Shown here: one piece after another, positions 33,362-41,656 of the stretch | How positions within the stretch are numbered: position 1 is the stretch's first letter | How the letters are laid out: every line of letters begins with the position of its first letter | Source of the DNA: Bifidobacterium ruminantium DSM 6489 | Lineage (GTDB): Bacteria; Actinomycetota; Actinomycetes; Actinomycetales; Bifidobacteriaceae | Length of the DNA stretch: 64,000 bases | Assembly (NCBI RefSeq): GCF_000770925.1 | Contig: NZ_JDTK01000001.1 | Location: 124,001 to 188,000, forward strand | Reading direction: 5' to 3' | The notes under the pieces: generated by a model | The model's database searches: none | The model's input: the letters and a program-made list of their open reading frames with translations, nothing else | What the model was told of the DNA's origin: nothing | Translations under genes and position numbers: made by a program

Positions 33362-34104
33362 CCGGTCCGAAACGTATGCGGCCGGAATCCGCGGAGGCCG
33401 ATCCCGAGCTCGCAGTCAGCTATGTGGTGGAACCGGAACGACGCATGTCGGAGCTGTCCGTGGACCGTCCGCAGTCGGCCGTGACGTCTGGCCGCAGGTC
33501 GGCACGAGGGAACTGGCATAACCGTCTGCGCATCGGCATCATGGGCGGCACGTTCGACCCGATCCACAACGGCCACCTAGTCGCAGCCTCCGAAGTGTCA
33601 TGGGTATACGATCTCGACGAAGTGATTTTCGTGCCGACCGGACGGCCGGTGTTCAAACTGGACAAGAAGGTCACCAATGCGGAGGACCGCTATCTCATGA
33701 CGGTCATCGCCACCGCATCCAATCCGAAATTCACCGTGTCGCGCGTGGACATCGACCGCCCCGGCATCACCTACACCATCGACACGCTGCGCGACATCCG
33801 CGTCCAGTATCCGGACGCCGAACTGTTCTTCATCACCGGAGCCGACGCCGTGGCGGAGATCATGCAGTGGAAGGACGCCGACAAAATGTGGGATCTGGCG
33901 CATTTCGTGGCCGTGACGCGGCCGGGCTACTCCTCACCGGACGGTGTGAGGCTACCCGCAGGCAAGGTGGATACATTGGAGATCCCCGCATTGGCGATTT
34001 CATCGACCGACGTGCGCAGAAGAGCAGAACACGGAGAACCGGTCTGGTACCTCGTGCCCGACGGCGTGGTGCAGTACATCGGCAAGCACGGCCTGTACCG
34101 ATAG
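33358..34104 (+). CDS. nadD: Nicotinate-nucleotide adenylyltransferase
   Basis: It makes deamido-NAD from nicotinate mononucleotide and ATP. The 248-residue protein has the nucleotidyltransferase motif '[16 protein letters not shown]' starting near residue 59, and the C-terminal '[13 protein letters not shown]' equivalent to ISxTxxR. The ~57 residues before the catalytic fold are not part of the usual enzyme and are polar and probably disordered. A shorter start is possible, but the ATGA overlap with the preceding gene supports the long form. The common partner rsfS lies about 9 kb away, behind glmU. Confidence 0.93.
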
Positions 34105-34223
34105 CCATCGTGGGTGGAACGGACGCGATTTCGCGTATACCCTCGAACACACGTGGGCATCGAGGTCTGCGTAGCCGGTTAGTATGGGTCACATCCACTT
34201 CGCTAGAACAGACGTTTGGAGAT

Positions 34224-35246
34224 ATGGTGAGCGCAATCCTTGAAGGAAAGCCGGATAAGAACCTTATCCTTGTCACAGGCAGGGCACACCCGAAGCTGGC
34301 GGCGGAAGTCGCCGAACAGCTCGGCATCGATGTTCTGGAAACCACAGCATACGACTTCGCGAACGGCGAGATGTACGTGCGCTACACCGAATCCGTGCGC
34401 GGTGCGGACGTGTTCGTGCTGCAAAGCCATTCCAACCCGGTCAACCAGGCCATCATGGAGCAGCTCATCATGATCGACGCGCTGAAACGCGCCTCCGCAC
34501 GCTCCATCACCGCGGTCTGTCCGCTGCTGGGCTACTCGCGCCAGGACAAGAAGCATCGCGGACGCGAGCCCATCTCCTGCCGTCTCGTGTTCGACTTGCT
34601 CAAAACCGCAGGCGCCGACCGCATCATGAGCGTCGACCTGCACGCGGCGCAATCCCAAGGCTTCTTCGATGGCCCCGTCGACCATCTCATCGCCATGCCG
34701 GTGCTGGTCGACTACATCCGAGACCGTTTCTCCAACCAGCTTGACAACGTCGCCGTCGTGTCCCCGGACGCCGGCCGTATCCGCGTCGCCGAACAGTGGG
34801 CGCAACGCCTCGGCGGCGGACCGCTCGCCTTCGTGCACAAGACCCGCGACATCACCCGTCCGAACCAGGCGGTCTCCAACCGCGTGGTCGGCGACGTGGC
34901 AGGCAAGGACTGCGTACTCGTCGACGACCTGATCGACACCGCCGGCACCATCGCGGGGGCATGCAATGTGCTCAAGGACGCCGGCGCCAAGTCGGTGACC
35001 GTCGTCGCCACGCATGGCGTGCTGTCCGGCCCGGCCGTGGAACGTCTGAAGAACTGTGGCGCTCGCGAAGTCGTGCTCACCGACACCGTGCCGATTCCGG
35101 AGGAGAAGCGCTGGGACGGCCTTACCGTCCTGTCCATCGCGCCCCTGCTGGCCAGCGCCATCCGCGCTGTGTTCGAGGACGGTTCCGTGGCCGAATTGTT
35201 CGACACATATCCGGAGCATCACGGACAGGGCTTCCTGTTCGCCTGA
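34224..35246 (+). CDS. prs: Ribose-phosphate pyrophosphokinase
   Basis: It makes PRPP from ribose 5-phosphate and ATP for nucleotides, His and Trp. The 340-residue protein shows the class I signatures 'LGYSRQDKKHRGREPIS', 'RIMSVDLHAAQSQGFF' and the PRPP loop 'CVLVDDLIDTAGTIAGA'. The start ATG 34224 follows TTTGGAG. A -10-like TAGTAT lies at 34180–34185. In Actinobacteria prs often follows glmU; here glmU is 6.5 kb further on, separated by accessory genes. A perfect hairpin closes the gene. Confidence 0.95.
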   Translation: MVSAILEGKPDKNLILVTGRAHPKLAAEVAEQLGIDVLETTAYDFANGEMYVRYTESVRGADVFVLQSHSNPVNQAIMEQLIMIDALKRASARSITAVCPLLGYSRQDKKHRGREPISCRLVFDLLKTAGADRIMSVDLHAAQSQGFFDGPVDHLIAMPVLVDYIRDRFSNQLDNVAVVSPDAGRIRVAEQWAQRLGGGPLAFVHKTRDITRPNQAVSNRVVGDVAGKDCVLVDDLIDTAGTIAGACNVLKDAGAKSVTVVATHGVLSGPAVERLKNCGAREVVLTDTVPIPEEKRWDGLTVLSIAPLLASAIRAVFEDGSVAELFDTYPEHHGQGFLFA

Positions 35247-35259
35247 TTCCACTAATTTT

Positions 35260-35303
35260 CGGCAGCGGAACTCCAATGTTTGGCGATTGGAGTTCCGCTG
35301 CCG
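35260..35303 (+). terminator. prs terminator-like hairpin
   Basis: CGGCAGCGGAACTCCAAT (35260–35277) and its exact complement (35286–35303) make an 18-base perfect stem with an 8-base loop, 13 bases after the prs stop. No T-run follows directly; the nearest is about 30 bases further on. Confidence 0.75.
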
Positions 35304-35814
35304 GGATCCGCGGGTTCCGATTCGTTCGGAGCCCGTTTTTCTTTTGCCGAAAGGTTTTGCGCCTGTTCCTGGCCGATGCCAACGACTCCCTTGTCATTGT
35401 CCTTTTCCACATGGAACCGTCCGCATACTGCGCCATCATCTCCATCGGCCTCTTTCCATCGATCTCTTTGGACGCTTGCGGATTGCTGAGCGTTTGTGCG
35501 GATTAATCCGCCGTCAAATCCCATGAATTATCCGAATAAAGAAACACCCAAAAAACGAAAACGTTGAATTTCCAACGTTTCAACGCATATATCGCAGCTG
35601 GCTCATTAGGGGGCGATTGAAAAATCCGCACGCGCATCCGATAATCCACAAACGATTGGAATTATCCGCACGGCAATTGGATGACGCGGTCAGATATGTC
35701 GATCGAAGATGGAGGAGTAGATTGGAGAATATCGTTTTCCGTGTATGAGCGCGTCCTTGCGGCATGGAAGCGCCGCGCGCGAAACAAAGAAGCAAAAGAA
35801 ACGGGAAGAGAACA
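35304..35814. other. Gene-poor, AT-richer stretch before the nuclease gene
   Basis: About 510 bases without a convincing gene; open frames here are short, have no binding site and look random. It becomes AT-rich from ~35500. A small perfect hairpin AAACGTTG (35559–35566) / CAACGTTT (35573–35580) lies in the middle, and TTATCC/ATCCGC words recur around it. It probably holds the promoter of the nuclease gene, although no clear -35/-10 pair stands out. Confidence 0.5.
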
Positions 35815-36756
35815 ATGAGCGGGGAAGATTCCAAAACGGACGATGACGCGAAGCGTGACTATCTGATTCGCACCTTTTCGAGGACGAAGCGCAAGGATTA
35901 CGAAAACTATGTGGTCAATGCGGTGTGGAATAGGCTGGGAATGCGCGACGTGAAACCCGTGACCCAGCAGCCGGTATTATGCCCGGGGAAAGCATACAAG
36001 TTCATCGACCTGTACTTCCCGCAAGTGGGCATCGGCGTCGAATGCGATGAGGCATATCATCAGAATGAGGAACAGCATTCCCGCGACATCCATCGTGAGA
36101 TCACGATCATCGAGGTGCTTCGTCAAATCCATGAGGGAGATTATGAGCTGAAACGCATCGACGCGACGAAGCCTTTTGCCGAATTCGAACAGAGCATAGA
36201 CGACGTGGTCTCCTGCATCGCGGATAAGGTCAACGAGCAGAAAGCCAATGGAACATTCAAGCCTTGGATTCAGGCCGTGGATGATTGGCGACAGTATTAT
36301 GCGGACAAGGACCGCATCTCCGTTTCGGACGACATCGGCTTTCCCCGTATAGTCGACGCCGTGAACACCCTATGCAGCGCCGACTATAAAGGGTGTCAGA
36401 TGGGTTGGTGCGTGCCCAGTGCCCTACGTCCGGTTTACGGAGATGAATACCGGACATGGTTCCCCAAGCTTGCCGTCAACGGGAAGGCCATAGCGAGCGG
36501 CTGGAACAATCGTCTGTCGCCGGATGGCCTGCACATCGAGGAATACAACGAATATAATCCCGATGCCGTGGATCCTGTGACCAGCGGACAGGCCGCCCAC
36601 GACAAGCGAATCACCTTCGCCAAAAGCACCGACCCCATGACCCGCCAATCCTCCTACAGGTTCGTCGGCGTTTTCCAACGTATAACCAACAATGACGAAG
36701 GAACCCGCAAAAGGTATGAACGCATAGCTGACTCATTCCCGATCATCCGTGCCTAG
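35815..36756 (+). CDS. PvuRts1I/AbaSI-like modification-dependent restriction endonuclease (putative)
   Basis: 313 residues, ATG 35815 behind GGGAAGAG. The N-terminal ~120 residues look like the Vsr/PD-(D/E)XK nuclease of PvuRts1I-type enzymes: a 'DYENYVVNAVWNRL' helix, then 'FIDLYFPQVGIGVECDEAYH' with Asp65, Glu76, Asp78/Glu79 and His82 as candidate catalytic residues. The C-terminal half ends in 'SSYRFVGVFQ' (279–288), like the end of the SRA-like reader domain of these enzymes. They cut DNA with 5-hydroxymethyl- or glucosyl-hydroxymethylcytosine, as in T-even type phages. No methyltransferase is adjacent, as expected for a type IV enzyme. The family call is from motif memory; a different PD-(D/E)XK protein cannot be excluded. 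Its stop overlaps the convergent SDR stop. Confidence 0.65.
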   Translation: MSGEDSKTDDDAKRDYLIRTFSRTKRKDYENYVVNAVWNRLGMRDVKPVTQQPVLCPGKAYKFIDLYFPQVGIGVECDEAYHQNEEQHSRDIHREITIIEVLRQIHEGDYELKRIDATKPFAEFEQSIDDVVSCIADKVNEQKANGTFKPWIQAVDDWRQYYADKDRISVSDDIGFPRIVDAVNTLCSADYKGCQMGWCVPSALRPVYGDEYRTWFPKLAVNGKAIASGWNNRLSPDGLHIEEYNEYNPDAVDPVTSGQAAHDKRITFAKSTDPMTRQSSYRFVGVFQRITNNDEGTRKRYERIADSFPIIRA

Positions 36757-37538
36757 TCGAGGCTGGTGCCGCCGTCCACGTCGAGGGTCTCGCCGTCGAT
36801 GTAGCCGGATTCCGGATCAGCGAGGAACACGATGGCGCGGGCGATGTCATACGGCTGGCCACCATGCTTGACGAGCGTGGAATCCTCGATGGCCTTCTGC
36901 TTCCAATCCGGCATCCCCGACGTCATCGGCGTGTAAGTCAGTCCCGGCATGACCGCGTTCACGTTGATGCCGTCCGTCGCATACTCCCTGGCCGCGCCGC
37001 GGGTGAGCGCCGCGACGCCCGCCTTGGTGGCCGCGTAGGCCACACCGCCCAGGTATCCACCGCCGTGCTTCGCGGCGATGGAGGACACGTTGACGATGCG
37101 ACCGTAATGCTGCGTCCTCATGCGCTTGACGGCCTGCTTGATGGTCAGGAAGCCGGCGGTCAGATTGACCGCGAGAATCCGGTTCCAGCGTTCTAGATCC
37201 GTGTTGTCGAGCGTGTCCTTGATGATGATGCCCGCGTCGTTGACGAGGATGTCGATGCCGCCGTAATGTTCGTCAAGCTGCTGGAAGACGCGTTCGACGG
37301 TGCTCGGGTTGGAGATGTCCCCGGGCGCTGCGAAGGCCTCACCGCCCGCCTGGGTGATGAGGCCGACCGTGGCTTCCGCGCGTTCCGGCACGATGTCGTT
37401 GACCGCGACCCTCACGCCTTTGCTTGCGAGCAGTTGGGCGGCGGCCTGGCCGATGCCCTGTCCGGATCCTGTCACCAAGGCACGCTGGCCCTCCCAACGC
37501 TGATCGTGACGCTCCTCATCGAGTCCTGTGATATGCAT
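36753..37538 (-). CDS. Short-chain dehydrogenase/reductase (gluconate 5-dehydrogenase-like)
   Basis: A 261-residue classical SDR. The cofactor loop TGSGQGIG starts at Thr23, 'LVNDAGIII' is the NAG-type motif, and the active site reads 'NVSSIAAKHGGGYLGGVAYAATKAG' with Ser, Tyr and Lys in order. It is closest in style to gluconate/sugar 5-dehydrogenases and 3-oxoacyl reductases, so the substrate is open. The start is ATG 37538 behind GGGAAGGG; an open frame to 37586 has no better site. The stop codon overlaps that of the convergent nuclease gene by 4 bases, so there is no room for a terminator between them. Confidence 0.88.
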   Translation of the reverse strand: MHITGLDEERHDQRWEGQRALVTGSGQGIGQAAAQLLASKGVRVAVNDIVPERAEATVGLITQAGGEAFAAPGDISNPSTVERVFQQLDEHYGGIDILVNDAGIIIKDTLDNTDLERWNRILAVNLTAGFLTIKQAVKRMRTQHYGRIVNVSSIAAKHGGGYLGGVAYAATKAGVAALTRGAAREYATDGINVNAVMPGLTYTPMTSGMPDWKQKAIEDSTLVKHGGQPYDIARAIVFLADPESGYIDGETLDVDGGTSLD

Positions 37539-37873
37539 GGTTTCCCTTCCCCGCGATTCTCCGGCGCCCATCCGCCGGTTCATCATGCAAGTGTAGGTGC
37601 GGACAAGGGGATACGCACGCCATCGGCCTCCTTCTGGAATGCAGGATCGGTTTCAGCAAGCCGGCCATAGGGCTATAGGCTTGGCGGAATGAATGGCTTT
37701 GGATAGGCCGGACATCGACGCAGTATTCGAGTGCACACGGAAACGGATTCGGACGAATCTCGCGACACTTCAACTTAAATCCGCTTCTTCGCTGTGGTGA
37801 TAACATGACGACATTGTTTTCAAGAGAGAAGACGAGGGCGTCAAATTGCACGACGTAGAAAAGAGACAATCCG
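37539..37873. other. Intergenic region between divergent SDR and isochorismatase-like genes
   Basis: 335 bases with no gene that I can support. The part near 37800 is AT-richer ('TGATAACATGACG'), where the promoter of the isochorismatase-like gene may lie. Nothing else was recognised. Confidence 0.5.
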
Positions 37874-38383
37874 ATGAGTGACGCGTTGCTAGTCATCGAC
37901 ATGCAGGAAGCGTACGTAGGGGAGCACCGCTTCCCATACCTCAAATACAGTATGCCCGATCTGCTCACTACGGTAAATGGCGTCATTGACGCTTACGCAG
38001 ACGAGAAGCGGCTGATTGTATACATAAGAAACGTGATGGAACGCAGCCTCCTCAGCCGTCTGTCACCGTTCAAAGTGTATGAGGACACTCTGGAGTCAAA
38101 GCTGGTTGAAGGACTGCACGTGGCATCGAATCACGTGTTCGTGAAACATGCGGGAGACGCGTTCTCCAATCCTCAATTGCATGCTTTCCTGAAGGAAAAC
38201 AACGTGGATTCGGTCAAAATCGTGGGCGTGGATGGAGGCGGCTGCGTGGCATTGACCGCGCTGGGCGCAATAGAACACGGCTACCATGTGGTAGTCGACG
38301 AGCCGGCCATTGGCACGACATTTGAACGCAGCAAAAGGAAGCACTTCAGGAAACTGAAGGAGCTGGGCGCCGAATTCGTCTGA
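37874..38383 (+). CDS. Isochorismatase-family cysteine hydrolase
   Basis: 169 residues, with the catalytic triad of the family readable as Asp9 ('LLVIDMQ'), Lys91 ('VFVKHAGDAF') and Cys124 ('GVDGGGCVALTA'). The family includes nicotinamidases, isochorismatases and amidases. The metal-binding residues of nicotinamidases (DxHxxxH near residue 50) are absent, so nicotinamidase is unlikely. The start ATG 37874 follows AAAGAGA. It stands alone between a SDR and a MATE gene on the other strand, so context gives no substrate. Confidence 0.85.
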   Translation: MSDALLVIDMQEAYVGEHRFPYLKYSMPDLLTTVNGVIDAYADEKRLIVYIRNVMERSLLSRLSPFKVYEDTLESKLVEGLHVASNHVFVKHAGDAFSNPQLHAFLKENNVDSVKIVGVDGGGCVALTALGAIEHGYHVVVDEPAIGTTFERSKRKHFRKLKELGAEFV

Positions 38384-38475
38384 TGGCCAACCCCTGCCTG
38401 CCGCGATTGCCATATCCGTTTGATTTGCACGGAATATGACCACACCATCAGATTTCCATTAAACGGGTCAAGATG

Positions 38476-39840
38476 TCAGACGGTTTTACGTCGCGAACCG
38501 CGCAGCTCCGGAAGCAACACGATGAACAACACGATGGCGAGTATGGCGGTGAGCAGATCCGCCACTGCCTGCGCCGCGATGACGCCATGGTATCCGGCGA
38601 TACGGGATCCCGCATACAGTGTGATGGCAAGCATCACTCCCTGCCGGCTGATGGACAGGGCCAGCGCGCCCCACGCCTTGCCTGCGGATTGGAAAGTGCA
38701 CGTGGTAACGAGGACGATTGCGACGCACACGGTGCTCAGAAGCTGCACACGCAGCATGCCGGTGCCGAGGTCGATGATGCGCTGGTCGTCGCTGAAGAAG
38801 CCCATGAGCTGTCGCGCGGAGGCCACAAGTACCACGGTCATGCCGATGGCGAGCAGGCAGAGGAAACCGTAAGCGAATCTGAGCAGTGCTTTCAGACGTG
38901 GCATGTTGCCAGAACCGTAGTTGTATCCGATAAGAGGCTGACCGCCGAAAGCGAAGGCCACAAGAATCAACACGGCGATCATAACGATTTTCAGACCGAT
39001 GCCCATGGCCGCGACCGCGTCATTGCCGTATGGCAAGAGGAACAGGTTGATCATGACGATGCCAAGGCTCTGCATGAGATTGGTGACGGATGCGGGTATG
39101 CCGATGGCGAAAATGCCCGAGACCTCGTGACGGGTGATGGCGATTCCTCGGTCGCGCAGCATGAGCCGTGGATTGATGGAGAGGTTTTCGCTGCGTGCGA
39201 CGAGGAACCAGATATAGTAGGCATCCGTGCAGATGTTCGCTATGACGGTCGCGCTCGCGGATCCGGCGGCGCCCCATCCGAACACGTGGATGAACAATGG
39301 GTTGAGACAGATGTTGATGAGGGTTCCGGCGACCGAGCCTATGGCTGACGGGGTGGCATGGCCCTCGGCCCGCAACAGATTGGTCGGCGTCATGGACGCG
39401 ATGATGAATGGCGAACCGATGATGATGAGCGTGTAGAACTGTGACGCATACTGCCATGTGTTGCCGTCCGCGCCGAGCATGGAGAGAATCGGGTCTCGGA
39501 ACGCGAGACCGAAGATGATGACGAGTAGACCGGTGAGGACGGCTCCCCAGAAGCAGAATACGCTCAGCCGCTTGCCGTCATCGTAACGTCCCTGTCCGTA
39601 GAGCCGTGAGATCACGGAGCTTCCGCCAAGTCCGAAGATGTCGCCGAGTGCGATCATGACCGTGAATACGGGGGTTGCTATCGCGACGCCCGCCACCATG
39701 TCGGTGTTGCCGGTATGCGCGATGAAATAGGTGTCCACGGTGTTGTAGGCGAGGGTGACCATCATGCTGAGCACGACGGGGATCGCAAGGGTCATGTATG
39801 CGCGCGGTATCGGCGCCTTCTCGAAGAGTTCGTTATCCAT
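38476..39840 (-). CDS. MATE-family multidrug/Na+ antiporter
   Basis: About 454 residues with 12 membrane helices in two similar halves. The N-terminal half has 'PRAYMTLAIPVVLSMMVTLAYNTVDTYFIAHTGN' and 'GDIFGLGGSSVISRLYG', typical of the NorM/DinF-type family; the second half shows 'QPLIGYNYGSG'. The start ATG 39840 lacks a Shine-Dalgarno; a TTG at 39852 is the alternative, and a leaderless message is possible. It is a proton or sodium driven exporter of cationic drugs or metabolites; substrate unknown. Confidence 0.9.
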   Translation of the reverse strand: MDNELFEKAPIPRAYMTLAIPVVLSMMVTLAYNTVDTYFIAHTGNTDMVAGVAIATPVFTVMIALGDIFGLGGSSVISRLYGQGRYDDGKRLSVFCFWGAVLTGLLVIIFGLAFRDPILSMLGADGNTWQYASQFYTLIIIGSPFIIASMTPTNLLRAEGHATPSAIGSVAGTLINICLNPLFIHVFGWGAAGSASATVIANICTDAYYIWFLVARSENLSINPRLMLRDRGIAITRHEVSGIFAIGIPASVTNLMQSLGIVMINLFLLPYGNDAVAAMGIGLKIVMIAVLILVAFAFGGQPLIGYNYGSGNMPRLKALLRFAYGFLCLLAIGMTVVLVASARQLMGFFSDDQRIIDLGTGMLRVQLLSTVCVAIVLVTTCTFQSAGKAWGALALSISRQGVMLAITLYAGSRIAGYHGVIAAQAVADLLTAILAIVLFIVLLPELRGSRRKTV

Positions 39841-39921
39841 AGCAGTCGCCAAGACTACAATGCCGAACCGGACATTTTCGGGAATGTCATGCGGCGCCCT
39901 ATGCCCACGTCTGCGAATGTT

Positions 39922-39969
39922 GCATCCGGTGGCCGATTGCTCGTGATCGCGCTATCGGCCACCGGATGC
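39922..39969 (-). terminator. Hairpin downstream of the aldo/keto reductase gene
   Basis: GCATCCGGTGGCCGAT (39922–39937) and ATCGGCCACCGGATGC (39954–39969) form a perfect 16-base stem with a 16-base loop, 17 bases past the reductase stop on the minus strand. No T-run follows. It separates this gene from the MATE gene. Confidence 0.65.
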
Positions 39970-39985
39970 GCTGCGATGCCGGATT

Positions 39986-40996
39986 CTACCGCAGCGAGAT
40001 ATCGTCGATGCGGCGAAGCTCCTCTTCGCTGAATGTGGTGTTTCGGAGCGCTCCGATATTGTCGAGCAGTTGTTGCGGGCGAGACGCTCCGACCAGCACC
40101 GAAGTGACCATGCCGCCGTGCAGCAGCCAGGCCAACGCCATCTCGGCCAGGGTCTGACCACGTTCCGCCGCCAGATCGTTCAACTCGCGGATCTGCTGCA
40201 GCTTTTCCTCGGTCAACGCGCTTTTCCGCAGGAACCGTCCGTCATGGGCGATTCTGCTGTCTGCGGGAATGCCGTCTAGATACCTGTCGGTCAGCAGTCC
40301 TTGGTCGAGAGGGGAGAAGGTGATCAGTCCCTTGCCGAGACGGTGGGAGGTCTCCTTGAGTCCGTTGCGCTCAACGGTGCGGTCGAAGATGTTGTACCGG
40401 TTCTGATTGATGATGAACGGCACATGCAGCTCGTCGAGAATGGCGGTGGCCTTTTCGAGCGTCGGACCGTCATAATTGGACAGGCCCACGTACAGGGCCT
40501 TGCCACTGCTGACCGCCGTGGCGAGCGCTCCCATGGACTCTTCGAGCGGGGTGGATGGGTCCATGTGATGGTGGTAGAAGATGTCGACGTAGTCGAGTCC
40601 AAGTCGTTCGAGGCTTTGGTCGAGTGAGGCGAGCAGGTATTTGCGGCTGCCGAGATCGCCGTATGGGCCGTTCCACATTTCGTAGCCGGCTTTGGTGCTG
40701 ATGATGAGTTCGTCGCGGTGGTGCTGGAAATATTCGTGCAGCAGCCTTCCGCAGTTCTTTTCGGCGGATCCTGGTTCGGGGCCGTAGTTGTTGGCTAGGT
40801 CGAAGTGGGTGATGCCGTTGTCGAATGCAGTGAACACGATTCGGCGCATGGTGTCGTATGGGGTGATGTCGCCAAAGTTGTGCCAGAATCCGAGGGATAT
40901 GGCGGGGAGCTTGAGGCCGCTTGTTCCCGCATGGTTGTAGGTCATGTCGTCGTATCGGTTTGGCGATGGCGTGTAGATGGTGGTCGGCTCGAGCAT
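39986..40996 (-). CDS. Aldo/keto reductase, YghZ (L-glyceraldehyde 3-phosphate reductase) type
   Basis: A 336-residue (beta/alpha)8 NADPH-dependent reductase. The start region 'PNRYDDMTYNHAGTSGLKLPAISLGFWHNFG' and 'HFDLANNYGPEPGSAE' match the YghZ/GpsA-like AKR14 group; 'FYHHHMDP' carries the conserved His and 'ISTKAGY' the conserved Lys. The C-terminal cofactor site is 'LVGASRPQQLLDNIGAL'. Such enzymes remove L-GAP or methylglyoxal. ATG 40996 has a strong AAGGAGG. The promoter region is shared with a divergent DNA-repair gene. Confidence 0.9.
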   Translation of the reverse strand: MLEPTTIYTPSPNRYDDMTYNHAGTSGLKLPAISLGFWHNFGDITPYDTMRRIVFTAFDNGITHFDLANNYGPEPGSAEKNCGRLLHEYFQHHRDELIISTKAGYEMWNGPYGDLGSRKYLLASLDQSLERLGLDYVDIFYHHHMDPSTPLEESMGALATAVSSGKALYVGLSNYDGPTLEKATAILDELHVPFIINQNRYNIFDRTVERNGLKETSHRLGKGLITFSPLDQGLLTDRYLDGIPADSRIAHDGRFLRKSALTEEKLQQIRELNDLAAERGQTLAEMALAWLLHGGMVTSVLVGASRPQQLLDNIGALRNTTFSEEELRRIDDISLR

Positions 40997-41037
40997 GGTT
41001 CCTCCTTGAACTGCGGCGATTGCGTATTCGCCAAGTC

Positions 41038-41082
41038 AGAATACACATCCGCTTGCCGCGTCGCAACATGCCGCAATACAAT
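41038..41082. promoter_or_regulatory. Overlapping divergent promoters
   Basis: Minus strand: TTGCGA (41061–41066), 17 bases, TATTCT (41038–41043), pointing to the aldo/keto reductase. Plus strand: TTGCCG (41053–41058), 18 bases, TACAAT (41077–41082), pointing to the DNA-deoxyinosine glycosylase gene. The two overlap, so they may compete. Confidence 0.65.
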
Positions 41083-41125
41083 GGTCGCGTCATGGCGCGT
41101 CCATGTAATGACAGGAGGAATGCCG

Positions 41126-41656
41126 ATGCATGTGGAGCATGGGTTCGGTCCGGTTTGGGACGCCGAATCGCGCGTGTTGGTATTGGGTTCCATGCCGAGT
41201 CCGAAATCACGTGAGATGCATTTCTACTATGGGCATCCGCGCAATCGTTTCTGGCCTGTCATGGCGGCCGTGTTCCATGATGACAGCTGCCTGTGCGAAG
41301 GCATGGCTCCCAATTGGACGGTGCGTGCGCGCAGGGATTTCGCGTTGCGTCACCATATGGCGCTGTGGGATGTGATCGCATCCTGCGATATCGAAGGTGC
41401 GAGCGACGCGAGCATTCGCAATGCCGTTCCCAATGATTTTTCCGGTATGCTTCGTCGATCGCGGATTTCCCATATATTCACCACGGGCGCGAAGGCCGCG
41501 CAGCTGTATCGGCGGCTTTGCGTCCCGCTGCTGCGGTCTCATGGATTGGATGACGTGCCGATGACGCGATTGCCGTCCACCAGTCCTGCGAATGCCGGAA
41601 TGAGCCTGCCGCGTCTTATCGAAGCCTACGATTGCGTCGGGCGCGCCGTTTCGTAG
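41126..41656 (+). CDS. DNA-deoxyinosine glycosylase (uracil-DNA glycosylase superfamily)
   Basis: 176 residues. 'VLVLGSMPSPKSREMHFYYGHPRNRFWPV' is the substrate-pocket signature of the hypoxanthine-DNA glycosylase group in the UDG superfamily, and 'LPSTSPANAGMS' is the second, DNA-intercalating motif. It should remove hypoxanthine that arises from deaminated adenine. The start is ATG 41126, six bases after AGGAGGA; an ATG at 41120 directly abuts that site. It is divergent from the aldo/keto reductase and shares the promoter region. Confidence 0.9.
   Translation: MHVEHGFGPVWDAESRVLVLGSMPSPKSREMHFYYGHPRNRFWPVMAAVFHDDSCLCEGMAPNWTVRARRDFALRHHMALWDVIASCDIEGASDASIRNAVPNDFSGMLRRSRISHIFTTGAKAAQLYRRLCVPLLRSHGLDDVPMTRLPSTSPANAGMSLPRLIEAYDCVGRAVS

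Follow-up and report, generated by a model that had tools for sequence, protein, structure and literature searches.

The window, a stretch of 64,000 nucleotides from the genome of Bifidobacterium ruminantium DSM 6489 (contig NZ_JDTK01000001.1, positions 124,001 to 188,000), carries an intact nuclease gene downstream of a conserved gene that we take to be prs, and this nuclease gene is followed by genes for an SDR dehydrogenase, an isochorismatase-like hydrolase and a MatE transporter (Table 1). The sequence GGGAAGAG lies directly 5' of the ATG, and an alternative longer in-frame start is found at 35764. G+C content is 54.2% in the gene compared with 60.3% in the window, and of the 942-base windows sampled, about 4% have a G+C content this low or lower; the intergenic stretch on the prs side is likewise poor in G+C, in line with the AT-richer flank described in an earlier sequence-only reading of this DNA. 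A perfect 18-base inverted repeat (35260–35277/35286–35303) is located just 3' of prs. RNA element searches of 34000–38500 gave nothing at gathering score, and promoter- and terminator-like sites in 35200–37900 were no more frequent than expected by chance. The earlier reading had placed the nuclease between house-keeping genes, which is correct for prs on the upstream side but not for the downstream SDR dehydrogenase gene, which was matched in only 1 of the 112 genus genomes at E ≤ 1e-60 and is accessory.

Table 1. Coordinates of the nuclease gene, its domains and its surroundings in the window.
Feature	Position	Strand	Remarks
prs (presumed), conserved left flank	34224..35246	+	matched in 112/112 genus genomes
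prs–nuclease intergenic stretch	35247..35814	.	50.4% G+C
Accessory block: nuclease, SDR dehydrogenase, isochorismatase-like hydrolase, MatE transporter	35249..39992	.	absent here from G001 and G006
PvuRts1I/AbaSI-family modification-dependent endonuclease gene	35815..36756	+	313 aa, intact frame, ATG 35815
N-terminal atypical PD-(D/E)XK (Vsr-like) nuclease domain	35857..36219	+	residues 15–135; PF21598
C-terminal SRA-like modified-base reader (predicted)	36295..36744	+	residues 161–310; PF18491
Pocket-rim segment	36472..36504	+	residues 220–230; Ala at the Tyr210 position, 5 residues longer than in PvuRts1I/AbaSI

Alignment of the window to two other genomes of the genus, G001 and G006, ends at 35248 and resumes at 39992/39996, with one 79-base match to G001 inside the block (37760–37838). 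G001 is the nearest relative as judged by prs (99%) and glmU (95%) identity, and G006 is more distant. Because similarity to both is missing across this interval, the block is accessory at the prs site, and the fact that the nearest relative lacks it at this site agrees with the acquired character that had been proposed from the sequence. The prs–SDR junction, singled out in that reading for a survey, proved variable in the genus: similarity stops at 35244–35249, the end of prs, in comparison with ten relatives, nine whose junction is opened or rearranged and G030, whose junction is compact. The distance from prs to glmU is 212–599 bases in 83 of the 110 genomes that yielded both genes (on different contigs in 3 of the 110), and the interval measures 0.9–35 kb in 14 other genomes, including that of the window with 6,554 bases. 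The interval (35249–41656 in the window, and its counterparts in G001, G006, G028 and G052) is likely a hotspot for accessory genes. A comparison of 35201–35300 with 39901–40050 revealed no shared 7–12-base word as direct repeat at the block ends. We infer that the block was gained here rather than lost in the relatives.

Judged by sequence, the similarity of the gene product to the PvuRts1I/AbaSI family is far above chance, and we are practically certain that it belongs to this family, as the sequence-only reading had recognized; Pfam, PADLOC, phmmer and structure comparison all agree. The profile search suggested there returned both the nuclease domain (PvuRts1I-like_N, 8.4e-34, 117 bits with a cut-off of 27) and the SRA domain (1.8e-36, 125.7 bits with a cut-off of 30.2), the remaining three Pfam matches being below their own cut-offs, and an NCBIfam search gave no match at E ≤ 10. 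Two mREase_II models of PADLOC matched the nuclease (best 3.8e-74, residues 13–311). In a phmmer search of the PDB, AbaSI was found with 8.6e-28 over residues 13–296 and PvuRts1I with 5e-22 and 6.2e-22, and every match beyond these had E > 0.1. An AlphaFold2 model from an input of 34 sequences reached a mean pLDDT of 83.8 and a pTM of 0.64, with residues 1–30, including K27 and E30, predicted poorly. With this model, Foldseek gave E ≤ 0.001 for five chains only, all of them AbaSI or PvuRts1I, and VIA structure alignment placed AbaSI (Z 18.5) and PvuRts1I (Z 17.6 and 16.8) nearest by a wide margin, the next match (Z 9.9) being 3hrl, a putative endonuclease-like protein that covered the nuclease domain only; Vsr (1cw0) aligned with Z 8.6 over 99 residues. 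The structure comparison proposed earlier thus came out with a predicted SRA-like C-terminal domain, the model aligning with AbaSI and PvuRts1I up to residue 312–313. The large rmsd to these structures (4.8–5.8 Å) is taken to reflect a different placement of the two domains relative to each other in the model. A different PD-(D/E)XK family as best match was ruled out by Pfam, phmmer, Foldseek and VIA. The design of the enzyme is ordinary, and the family itself is well known.

The nuclease signature 'FIDLYFPQVGIGVECDEAYH' that had been noticed in the N-terminal part occupies residues 63–82, inside the PF21598 match. The motif 'SSYRFVGVFQ', which had been taken for the C-terminus, was located at residues 279–288, and the protein continues for another 25 residues beyond it. 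Alignment to PvuRts1I showed that the residues assigned to the active site in PMC4157451 and PMC4027163 (K17, E20, D57, E68, D70, E71 and H74), several of which were essential in mutants and of which D70A retained some activity, are all kept in the nuclease as K27, E30, D65, E76, D78, E79 and H82 (7/7), a complete catalytic set. The pocket for the flipped base is similarly conserved: W205, P207, W215, N217 and E228 of PvuRts1I are kept (5/5), and with R244 included the equivalents W215, P217, W230, N232, E243 and R265 are all unchanged. Substitution of W215 or E228 abolished the activity of PvuRts1I (PMC4157451, PMC4027163). Given an open frame and the retention of all tested active-site and main pocket residues, it is very improbable that the gene is a family remnant that is inactive or has no part in defence, although loss does happen in the family, as the decayed relatives in G070 (several active-site residues missing), in B. 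minimum and on an Acinetobacter plasmid (both copies broken) indicate.

Four sequences other than the window gene may be described here. The divergent homologue in G070 (L074:7996–8970) is changed at the equivalents of K17, E20, D70, E71 and H74, with D57, E68 and most pocket residues remaining; from this pattern, it is perhaps a reader without nuclease activity. The B. minimum homologue (L024:7950–8884) runs in two frames, split near the join of the nuclease and SRA parts, and represents either a broken gene or an assembly error. The Acinetobacter plasmid copy (L090) is AbaSI-like, contains one in-frame stop and is unannotated in its record. Inside a 662-residue frame of another genus genome (L049; G069:C22:296607–297080), an SRA-like match to query residues 164–312 (E 2.4e-7) was found, whereas the nuclease part is unmatched there; this frame may be a further SRA fusion within the genus.

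The position of PvuRts1I Tyr210, which Shao et al. described as conserved among PvuRts1I homologues and proposed to be tied to selectivity, is occupied by Ala220 in the nuclease; we did not count Tyr210 as family-defining because the Pfam and PADLOC family models match without it. The position of Ala212 is Asn222, likewise Asn in AbaSI, and the A212N mutation of PvuRts1I lowered the preference for 5hmC (PMC4157451). Kazrani et al. named Arg208 and Tyr237 as further candidate contacts in PvuRts1I; these correspond to Lys218 and Gly258 (with an uncertain alignment at 237), and to Arg and Trp in AbaSI. The pocket rim, counted between the 210 position and the second tryptophan of the pocket, is also extended. 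Rim length and the missing Tyr210 are, on the alignments, the main new detail relative to AbaSI and PvuRts1I, and because of them the specificity of AbaSI should not be assumed for the nuclease without reservation.

When 38 relatives were aligned with the query, AbaSI and PvuRts1I, all seven active-site residues were kept in 37 of them (the exception being L047), and none of the 38 had Tyr at the 210 position. The alignment and tree were enlarged to 44 rows by adding plasmid and phage members; most rows had been gathered with the window nuclease's own peptides, which biases the set towards its branch, and the branch leading to one Limosilactobacillus row (L089) is very long. The rim is 4 residues long in five rows, namely AbaSI, PvuRts1I, a Priestia plasmid homologue, a Streptococcus phage homologue and an Acinetobacter plasmid homologue; it is 6 in the Thioclava row and 7–19 in the remaining 38 of the 44 rows, including the window nuclease with 9. 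Tyr or Phe occupies the 210 position in all five rim-4 rows and in none of the others. The small AbaSI/PvuRts1I branch received 100/100 support in two trees, and the window nuclease forms one clade with the homologues of G011 and B. bombi, also at 100/100 in the 44-row tree. These observations raise a reading that we regard as rather unlikely, namely that the window gene is part of a large branch, here mostly from Bacillota and Actinomycetota, whose remodelled rim (no Tyr210, 3–15 extra residues) would have shifted the pocket within the same mechanism towards another bulky C5 modification of cytosine, other than T4-type hydroxymethylcytosine and made by undiscovered phages of Gram-positive gut bacteria, leaving 5hmC as a weak substrate. 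The lost tyrosine, the long rims and the separate AbaSI/PvuRts1I branch speak for it, as does the report that changes of Tyr210, Ala212 or Asn217 altered the selectivity of PvuRts1I (PMC4157451). However, the stacking and hydrogen-bonding residues equivalent to W205, W215, N217 and E228 are unchanged, and Y210F raised rather than abolished the 5hmC selectivity of PvuRts1I (PMC4157451), suggesting that the 210 position tunes more than it decides. Tests of long-rim members were not found in the literature covered, and an earlier test may exist, even of an enzyme from Bifidobacterium.

C5-cytosine methylases were surveyed with PF00145, which gave no match in the window genome and a match in 10 of 14 control genomes, so the genome's own data are compatible with cutting of 5mC. 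It is nevertheless improbable that the enzyme also cuts 5-methylcytosine DNA, acting on methylated plasmids and phages and tolerated in a cell without a C5-methylase of its own, even though the matching PADLOC models are named 'methyl-directed'. G011, which carries a homologue 57% identical to the nuclease, has a C5-methylase gene, and such methylases occur in 3 of 6 genus carriers compared with 53 of 106 non-carriers (56/112 overall) and in 19 of 41 carrier genomes across the family, close to the genus background. No association of the family with 5mC methylases that would hint at the substrate was seen in these sets. The coexistence of carriers with C5-methylases argues against indiscriminate 5mC cutting; carriers do not avoid these enzymes, which agrees with published reports that the family discriminates against 5mC.

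We further looked for a source of hydroxymethylcytosine in the 112 genus genomes and found none, the tests being weak and lytic phages lying outside their coverage. TET/JBP searches gave no match in these genomes, nor in the control genomes. A ThyA-type match (PF00303, a profile that may miss gp42-like proteins) was present in 112/112; only G016 has a second full-length copy, G041 has a fragment, and the second match in G012, G085 and G101 is a piece adjoining the first. T4 gp42 has relatives in 945 phage records, including 191 from Microbacterium phages, and no Bifidobacterium phage was among the matches listed. Golden gp47 (L121:2977–3783), a Microbacterium phage protein annotated as thymidylate synthase, has Asp as in gp42 at a position where two bifidobacterial ThyA rows have Asn; this position presumably distinguishes dCMP from dUMP enzymes. 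One Microbacterium genome carries a homologue of the nuclease, L043, outside the AbaSI/PvuRts1I branch. Together with the gp42-like proteins of Microbacterium phages it offers a lead only, and no literature on Microbacterium phages and hydroxymethyl bases was found.

The family is patchily distributed in the genus. PF21598 passed its cut-off in 6 of the 112 genomes and matched at E ≤ 0.001 in 14, eight of these below the cut-off; a search with the window protein itself gave matches at E ≤ 0.001 in 9 of the 112, three of them weak and partial. In the five other genus carriers the homologue is not beside prs. PADLOC, applied to nine proteins (four neighbours of relatives, three homologues and two other window ORFs), matched only the three homologues. 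Such a distribution would be expected if a solitary gene had been gained horizontally on several occasions, the alternative being loss in relatives. The enzyme had been called noteworthy in Bifidobacterium; this stands only in a mild form, as six genomes pass the cut-off and plasmid records already label such proteins 'AbaSI family restriction endonuclease'. Family relatives were found in 10 of 50,697 phage records, comprising six Streptococcus suis phage records with equal score and four partial Acinetobacter matches, and a scan of viral contigs that used just two peptide patterns matched one contig; as far as these show, the family is rarely phage-carried. In the Streptococcus suis phage YS225, the PvuRts1I-type nuclease gene (L056:3974–4813) lies near an annotated methyltransferase gene.

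A literature search on Bifidobacterium and PvuRts1I found nothing, and the matches listed for Bifidobacterium and AbaSI look like an author surname. Wang reportedly described further PvuRts1I-family members in 2011. BbiDI is presumably the name of a family member, and a search on this name gave nothing relevant among the matches listed. For type IV restriction in Bifidobacterium, a term search of PMC4618763 gave nothing on the PvuRts1I/AbaSI family.

Taken together, we favour, with a probability of roughly 0.7 for the whole mechanism including its 5hmC/5ghmC substrate, the reading that the gene encodes a solitary, probably horizontally acquired type IV enzyme of the PvuRts1I/AbaSI family, whose role is most likely anti-phage. 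By analogy with its characterized relatives, the enzyme would act as a homodimer, and each C-terminal SRA-like domain would flip a C5-modified cytosine, with 5-hydroxymethylcytosine or its glucosylated form as the probable target, into its pocket. The paired N-terminal nuclease domains would then cut about midway between two modified cytosines located ~20–22 bp apart on opposite strands. Plain cytosine, and probably also 5mC, would be spared, making a partner methylase unnecessary for the cell, and incoming DNA of phages with such modified bases would be destroyed. This main reading, if true, predicts C5-modified cytosine, now or in the past, in some Bifidobacterium phages, of which no report was found among the literature matches listed. 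The nuclease may also make the strain harder to transform with modified DNA. The set of enzymes found here, whose pocket rims vary, would be useful for understanding how SRA domains distinguish cytosine modifications, and possibly as mapping reagents.

Among known systems, the MspJI family likewise combines an SRA-like reader with a PD-(D/E)XK nuclease, but its SRA part is N-terminal, and its resemblance to the model is weak (Foldseek E 7.2e-3) and confined to the SRA part (AspBHI Z 6.9, LpnPI 6.8, MspJI 6.1). BmeDI from Bacillus megaterium DSM 319 has a Gram-positive host as does the window nuclease; it is a family member that cuts 5hmC DNA 11–12 nt from 5hmC, and PMC4259335, which reports 5hmC cleavage by both YkrI and BmeDI, also gives spacing and cutting distance. 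The Priestia plasmid homologue (L053), which may be a different protein from BmeDI, has a short rim with Phe and groups with AbaSI and PvuRts1I. Within the genus, the homologues of G011 and B. bombi (L002) are 57–60% identical to the window nuclease and share its rim of 9, and that of B. minimum, which is outside the tree, is 57% and 47% identical in its two pieces; all three occupy chromosomal places other than prs (B. bombi and B. minimum being taken as G013 and G049 because ORF length and score agree). PvuRts1I of plasmid Rts1 from Proteus vulgaris (PDB 4oq2 and 4oky; Z 17.6 over 249 residues) has the active-site and main pocket residues in common with the window nuclease, which differs in having Ala, Asn and Lys in place of Tyr210, Ala212 and Arg208 and five more rim residues. 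AbaSI (PDB 4par) has the same two domains in the same order, with 29% identity over 258 aligned residues (Z 18.5), and agrees with the window nuclease in the active-site set, in the W/P/W/N/E/R pocket and in Asn at the 212 position, whereas at the 210 position it has Tyr with a rim of 4 and the window nuclease has Ala with a rim of 9.
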